DNA of 64,000 nucleotides from Ignavibacteriae bacterium HGW-Ignavibacteriae-4 (GTDB taxonomy: Bacteria > Bacteroidota > Ignavibacteria > Kapaibacteriales > UBA2268). A program made the translations under genes and the position numbers. The notes beneath the pieces were generated by a model. That model ran no database searches. It had not been told where the DNA came from and worked only from the letters and a program-made list of their open reading frames with translations. Shown piece by piece: positions 2,635 to 2,783 of the stretch (the stretch's first letter is position 1; each line of letters begins with the position of its first letter). The stretch spans positions 1 to 64,000 of the forward strand of contig PGYR01000014.1 in NCBI GenBank assembly GCA_002839765.1, given 5' to 3'.

Positions 2635-2783
2635 GGAGGTTCGAGTCCTCTCCTTATATGTCACATAAGGTAACTCAATCGGTAGAGTAATAGGCAACCA
2701 GGTTCGATTCCTGACATTCTATACGAATGTAGCTTATGGAAAGCACTGAATTTCGGTTTCAGGTCACAGAAGTTACCACTTCT
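2635..2783 (+). ncRNA. Tandem permuted tRNA-like RNA modules
   Basis: Module A: T arm GGAGG/CCTCT with loop TTCGAGT (2635-2651); a closed acceptor-like hairpin CCTTAT/ATAAGG with a 7-base loop (2652-2670); T and A at tRNA positions 8 and 9; D arm ACTC/GAGT with loop AATCGGTA (2673-2688), which has A14, G18, G19 and A21. Module B: T arm CAGG/CCTG with loop TTCGATT (2699-2713); hairpin ACATTC/GAATGT with loop TATAC (2714-2730); D arm GCTT/AAGC (2732-2744); perfect anticodon-like arm CTGAA/TTCAG with loop TTTCGGT (2746-2762, anticodon-like TCG); then hairpin AGAAG/CTTCT (2768-2783). The arm order is permuted relative to tRNA, so the 3' acceptor strand precedes the 5' strand. Bacterial Y RNAs of the YrlA type also mimic tRNA, and SPFH/Band-7 RNA-repair loci are reported to carry a tRNA-like RNA. 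Transcription and processing are inferred. Confidence 0.75.

Follow-up and report, generated by a model that had tools for sequence, protein, structure and literature searches.

A stretch of 64,000 nucleotides from Ignavibacteriae bacterium HGW-Ignavibacteriae-4 (contig PGYR01000014.1, positions 1 to 64,000 of the forward strand; hereafter the window) contains a unit made up of a WYL regulator gene, a putative operator, a conserved structured RNA, and a slipin gene. The RNA is predicted to be about 175 nucleotides long. It has two tRNA-like modules in circularly permuted order, of which B has an anticodon arm and A has none, and a pseudoknot follows them. Comparison of related loci indicates that the permuted scaffold is kept by compensatory changes, and the association between the RNA and slipin holds in both directions. 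The RNA may be a tRNA mimic that is made with slipin and acts in trans in the response to tRNA damage, a reading given somewhat less than an even chance.

Structure and conservation of the RNA

Module B is a circularly permuted tRNA-like unit because its T arm and acceptor hairpin precede its D arm, with the anticodon arm coming last. The initial annotation had described a D arm (GCTT/AAGC, 2732-2744), an anticodon-like arm one base past it (after A2745) with T33, a purine at position 37 (G37) and the triplet TCG, a third hairpin AGAAG(TTACCA)CTTCT at 2768-2783, and a module A that lacks an anticodon arm. All of these features are present. It was mistaken in holding that the T arm and acceptor were missing and that AGAAG/CTTCT took the place of the T arm. 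Both elements lie 5' of the D arm, and the hairpin is stem 1 of the pseudoknot, with its loop bases TTACC pairing with GGTAG at 2792-2796. The literal reading of this hairpin as a T-arm substitute was rejected for these reasons. ARAGORN calls no tRNA at the RNA, and the RF00005 tRNA model scores positions 2729-2784 at 22.6 bits, short of its cut-off of 29. Folded singly, the sequence does only weakly better than shuffled sequences (z = -1.5 for 2732-2783 and -1.9 for 2694-2763). Since it barely beats the shuffles, the case rests on comparison across loci.

The slipin gene downstream of the RNA led to genome G001, from the same genus (99% protein identity), and to G041 (58%). When the loci picked up by RF02553, the Rfam model of YrlA, were scanned for the motif, six further two-module RNAs emerged, each of them directly ahead of a slipin gene. 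In an alignment of nine loci, 94.6% of the pair cells are standard and 24 of the 35 pairs have changed on both sides, while shuffling gives a mean of 13.5 and none of 500 shuffles reaches 24. When the pairing partners are slid, 47% or less of the cells are paired. The anticodon stem is 100% paired in the nine loci, with four of its five pairs changed on both sides. A covariance model, R1, was built from this alignment and run on 395 Bacteroidota genomes, which are a sample drawn from the phylum; its E-values are rough. A second alignment of nine new loci and two rows of ordinary tRNA, which was fitted to R1 and hence leans toward the model, has 96.3% of its cells paired and 31 of the 35 pairs changed on both sides. 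The anticodon stem is 98% paired there, and all five of its pairs have changed on both sides. The closed acceptor hairpins are 4-8 base pairs long across the loci, with tight loops and no CCA. A linear tRNA pseudogene was rejected, as it is the permuted order that shows covariation.

Several loci have additional elements 3' of module B. A third permuted module with the anticodon GTT is found in L071 and L072 (genomes G388 and G182). In L069 and L070 (G384 and G356) there is a free-standing arm, AAATAGA(CTCAAAA)TCTATTT, which resembles a second anticodon arm.

In most loci the anticodon arm is followed by a hairpin, an A-rich linker, and a strand complementary to the hairpin loop, as in AGAG c{GCATC}a CTCT TAAAAA {GATGC}. 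MAFFT did not align the pseudoknot, and it was judged by a swap test instead. The pairing score of each loop with its own tail is 5.96, versus 3.31 +/- 0.39 with tails exchanged between loci (0 of 2000 permutations). One base change weakens the loop-tail stem in G001, which is otherwise near-identical to the window, and the pseudoknot is not clearly seen at this position in G384, G388, and G182.

The association with slipin was examined from both sides. All 16 R1 matches of at least 76.8 bits, seven of them among the sequences that built R1 and nine of them new, have a slipin gene 256-529 nucleotides downstream on the same strand, and these slipins appear to belong to one clade. The next 14 matches fetched (75.2 bits or less) have no slipin downstream, and most of those examined with ARAGORN turned out to be clusters of ordinary tRNA genes. 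In the reverse test, the slipin profile matches 19 of 390 genomes. Fifteen of these carriers have a strong R1 match, and in G101, G179, G276, and G329 one or more permuted modules lie just upstream, giving 19 of 19 slipins of the clade with at least one such module.

The modules might also be decayed tRNA genes left over from tRNA arrays, or permuted genes spliced into real tRNAs. Many carriers do have adjoining tRNA arrays, and the D and anticodon arms of module B look tRNA-derived. However, the permuted order is held by compensatory changes over deep divergence, and neither the closed, tightly looped acceptor hairpins nor the strict slipin association and conserved pseudoknot are expected of decay. 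The missing CCA and the variable acceptor length argue against splicing into tRNA. Such an origin is considered highly improbable.

Relation to YrlA

Module A is permuted in the same way as the tRNA-like module of YrlA, with a T arm, a closed acceptor hairpin, a D arm, and a closing stem. It has no anticodon loop, and the closing stem occupies the place of the anticodon stem. The module matches RF02553 with 33.2 bits (E 2.8e-5) at 2627-2692, covering model positions 23-85, and the corresponding module of L006 scores 47 bits (E 3.1e-9). Both fall short of the gathering score of 69 bits. The partial YrlA match was rejected as stand-alone evidence because ordinary tandem tRNA genes also score 28-37 bits against RF02553. 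The claim rests on the closed hairpin, the covariation, and the slipin link.

The features that tie YrlA to Ro60 are missing. The Ro60/Rsr-binding basal stem (RF02553 positions 1-22 and 86-114) has no match in the window. Genome searches found no Ro60 (TROVE) gene in G000, G001, and G041, and none in 18 of 19 further carrier genomes. The exception is G153, where TROVE lies at a separate YrlA-like locus. Absence elsewhere is meaningful because the search does detect Ro60 in G153 and in two genomes with multiple YrlA RNAs that served as positive controls (G064 and G312). With no basal stem and no TROVE gene nearby, identity as a Ro60-binding Y RNA was rejected. The RNA would work like a YrlA-type tRNA mimic, yet it is not YrlA, as its score is below the gathering score and the basal stem and Ro60 are missing. 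It also differs by its slipin partner, its pseudoknot, and a second permuted module that bears an anticodon arm, whereas the only arms described for YrlA are the D, T, and acceptor arms (PMC8394870). What is new is a YrlA-type mimic that does without Ro60 and has an anticodon arm in addition. No Rfam family matches at threshold, and the RNA was not found in the literature searched, though it may have been described earlier. The RNA family appears to be undescribed so far.

The YrlA domain reportedly binds PNPase, and DusA and TruB are reported to modify it (PMC8394870). Since module A matches the tRNA-like part of YrlA, the modules could similarly tether or gate a partner such as PNPase, a modification enzyme, or slipin, with the anticodon arm as a mere protein-binding stem. 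Against this stand the absence of the basal stem and of TROVE/Ro60 from the window genome and most carriers. A scaffold of this kind also leaves the strict 7-nucleotide loop, U33, and the changing triplet unexplained, and it is judged to be improbable.

In L039, L045, L046, L050, L051, L052, and L055, RtcB has a single YrlA-like permuted module in its vicinity; a WYL regulator is often there too, and this slipin is absent.

Anticodon variability and proposed function

The anticodon arm is tRNA-like and conserved in shape, and it is probably not a fixed copy of a single target, because the triplet varies and the match to host tRNAs is inconsistent. The loops were tabulated by hand (22 loops, 18 main loci). 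T33 is kept in 21 of the 22 loops, position 38 is A in 19, and position 37 is usually a purine. Positions 34-36 are variable, with an entropy of 1.5-1.75 bits, and the 18 loci have 11 triplets (TCG, GTT, TTT, CAA, GAA, GAG, AAA, TAG, TTG, TGG, and GTA). A conserved target anticodon had been looked for among relatives, and the triplet turned out to vary more than any other part of the arm. The arm does not diverge freely: the stem and U33 are kept, and it is mainly positions 34-36 that are free to change.

The initial annotation had suggested a sacrificial decoy, in which a specific anticodon nuclease cuts the loop instead of cellular tRNA; the cut RNA might then be religated by a neighbouring ligase. 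The arm is complete, its loop has U33 and in most cases a purine at position 37, and ligases are among the neighbours. In the window, the D and anticodon segment is closest to tRNA-Arg(UCG) among 28 host tRNAs, with a score of 31 compared to a shuffle 95% level of 24. However, stoichiometric decoying requires high expression, the triplet is not conserved, and the segment of G376 has no match with the same anticodon. The idea of a tRNA mimic for a nuclease survives in part: the conserved anticodon arm and the nearby tRNA arrays and RNA ligases, which suit the biology of tRNA damage, are in its favour, while no single nuclease-target anticodon is conserved. A sacrificial decoy, one among several models of a mimic, seems quite unlikely. 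Because U33 and the stem are conserved but the anticodon is not, the sequences favour a tRNA mimic that might serve as bait, sensor, or scaffold over a decoy with one fixed target.

If the RNA is a trans-acting tRNA mimic, tRNA damage or translation stress would alter WYL control, and the RNA would be transcribed together with slipin under stress. The T/D elbow would bind tRNA-recognising proteins. The exposed anticodon stem-loop could engage attackers or repairers of anticodon loops, acting as a bait, a damage sensor, or a competitive inhibitor. The response may be organised by slipin, either at a membrane or as a protein ring. With a variable triplet on a fixed scaffold, each lineage would follow a different attacker.

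Several observations weigh against this proposal. The segment of G376, which has the triplet TCG, best matches tRNA-Lys(UUU) and not a tRNA with the same anticodon, and that of G384 (TAG) best matches a tRNA-Leu of another anticodon, with a score moderately above shuffles. To our knowledge there is no known nuclease target in these species. Neither RtcB (PF01139) nor the T4-type RNA ligase Rnl1 (PF09511) was detected in the window genome; repair is thus not essential to the RNA there, and the window unit is a reduced one. Finally, the position of the RNA directly upstream of slipin also fits a cis-acting leader. Mimicry of a host tRNA with the same anticodon was rejected as a general rule, as it held in the window, failed in G376, and held at the family level (Leu) in G384.

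The leader is the main rival. It would be a permuted mimic in the 5' region of the slipin mRNA that senses tRNA-directed activity, with slipin expression changed by cutting of the loop or by a tRNA-reading protein. The RNA always lies on the slipin strand at the distance given above, and in the window there is no terminator-like hairpin with a T run between the RNA and the slipin gene. The conserved pseudoknot lies between the RNA and the gene, and the predicted promoter and putative operator are upstream of the RNA. On the other hand, true tRNA genes belong to the same array at several loci, so that processing of the transcript is expected, and single YrlA-like modules also adjoin RtcB in loci without slipin. 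A leader is regarded as unlikely.

Gene neighbourhood and related systems

The features of the window unit are listed in the table.

Table. Predicted features of the WYL-RNA-slipin unit (positions in the window).
Feature	Position	Strand	Basis or remark
WYL-domain transcriptional regulator	1174..2238	-	PF13280 WYL E=1.4e-12, PF25583 WCX E=1.9e-4; divergent from RNA/slipin unit
Putative operator copy nearer WYL, palindrome TACGCA-N7-TGCGTA	2290..2308		pattern count and relatives
Putative operator copy nearer RNA	2415..2433		pattern count and relatives
Bacteroidota-type -7 box TAATTTTG (TAnnTTTG)	2443..2450	+	9 nucleotides past RNA-side operator
5' hairpin GTGAT/ATCAC	2541..2557	+	inspection
Module A, permuted tRNA-like unit	2625..2693	+	partial RF02553 match, covariation
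Module A closing stem	2625-2629/2689-2693	+	
Module A T arm	2635-2651	+	
Module A closed acceptor hairpin	2652-2670	+	
Module A D arm	2673-2688	+	
Module B T arm CAGG(ttcgatt)CCTG	2699..2713	+	motif scan, covariation
Module B closed acceptor hairpin ACATTC(tatac)GAATGT	2714..2730	+	motif scan, covariation
Module B D arm GCTT(atgga)AAGC	2732..2744	+	motif scan
Module B anticodon arm CTGAA(TTTCGGT)TTCAG, triplet TCG	2746..2762	+	covariation
H-type pseudoknot	2768..2796	+	S1 AGAAG/CTTCT, S2 TTACC/GGTAG, A-rich linker CTAAAAAA; swap test
9-base-pair hairpin GTTCATCAG...CTGGTGAAC	2822..2852	+	without T run, not a terminator
Slipin (Band_7/SPFH), 365 amino acids	3058..4155	+	PF01145 E=1.4e-30; downstream of RNA, same strand

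The two palindrome copies flank the WYL start and the predicted RNA promoter. TRCGYA-N7-TRCGYA has two matches in the whole window, with 0 expected. The palindrome occurs with equal spacing in L006, L040, L096, L104, L105, and L106, and the arrangement of an operator copy followed by a -7 box recurs in the same loci; a TTTG element is found at roughly equal distance in other loci. Transcription is predicted to start near 2456, and the WYL protein probably binds the palindrome. The hairpin GTGAT/ATCAC would fall in the 5' part of the transcript, and L006 has the same hairpin. In G001 the 9-base-pair hairpin has a T-to-C change that preserves the base pair. The nearest relatives of slipin with solved structures are stomatins.

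RNA ligases, tRNA arrays, and the WYL regulator are recurrent neighbours of the RNA. RNA ligases are present within the fetched regions of approximately 12 of some 20 loci. RtcB is close to the RNA in L040, L044, L106, L108, L114, L117, and L118, and at 9 kilobases in L115. Rnl1 and Pnkp are found together close to the RNA in L006/L119 and L049/L116, and an RLIG1-like ligase in L043 and L107. The gene row of G041 is WYL, RNA, slipin, T4-type RNA ligase, and kinase-phosphatase (Pnkp). Homologues of the WYL regulator are close to the RNA in L006, L040, L106, and L116-L118, and tRNA arrays adjoin it in several loci. At the slipin locus L043 (6854-11828), the RNA is surrounded by genes for an RLIG1-like RNA ligase, a calcineurin-like phosphoesterase, and two DEDD exonucleases.

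Between the window and G001, a second species of the genus, the WYL-RNA-slipin segment has 97.7-99% identity, and identity is 80-89% from TrpS onward (window 1042-6000 compared with L005). Slipin is missing from two other species of the genus. The pattern points to recent horizontal transfer or recombination of the cassette, with a probable break near 4160-4320. A search of the viral collection with slipin gave no match. Permuted YrlA-like modules are common in IMG/VR contigs (L120-L239), where a pattern scan gave at least 120 stretches, many with single modules. Among the matches listed, no close homologue of slipin, WYL, RtcB, or Rnl was found in the viral stretches. In the viral contig L213, a YrlA-like module comes after one that has an anticodon-like arm (GTT).

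A link between YrlA and RNA repair is known from rsr-yrlBA-rtcBA (PMC7790460, PMC8394870), and Hughes et al. proposed that the tRNA-like domain of YrlA may competitively inhibit the anticodon nuclease (PMC7790460). The trn operon and TrcR regulon of Anabaena similarly combine a tRNA array, an RNA ligase (rtcB), and slipin in one stress regulon, under a common repressor and induced by translation inhibitors (PMC10272220). There, however, the repressor TrcR is an RHH protein instead of a WYL protein, the genes are dispersed, and the available part of that source mentions no permuted tRNA-like RNA. The circularly permuted tRNA genes known from algae and archaea also encode the 3' part of the tRNA ahead of the 5' part. 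Compared with the description available for them (PMC3978253), the RNA of the window differs in that the break is at the variable region and the acceptor loop is short and closed, with no CCA. Transfer-messenger RNA (tmRNA) likewise joins a tRNA-like domain and a pseudoknot in a single stress-related RNA, but the RNA described here has a different topology, no tag reading frame detected by ARAGORN, and no acceptor that could be aminoacylated. Phage tRNAs that evade tRNA-targeting defences share the tRNA shape, the variable anticodon loop, and the conflict with anticodon nucleases (PMC10264068, PMC11555353). They are real tRNAs, whereas this RNA cannot be a normal linear tRNA.

Overall it is possible, though doubtful, that there is a Ro60-independent class of modular tRNA-mimic RNAs, each combining permuted elbow modules with a pseudoknot and an anticodon arm that can be swapped, which together with slipin and RNA ligases would form a tRNA-damage sensor or bait whose specificity is reset by the anticodon displayed. 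The RNA family is tightly tied to slipin, a protein that recurs in RNA-repair loci. Because the anticodon changes while the scaffold stays fixed, the published idea that Y-RNA-type mimics inhibit anticodon nucleases can be tested directly, and natural variants for such testing exist across Bacteroidota.
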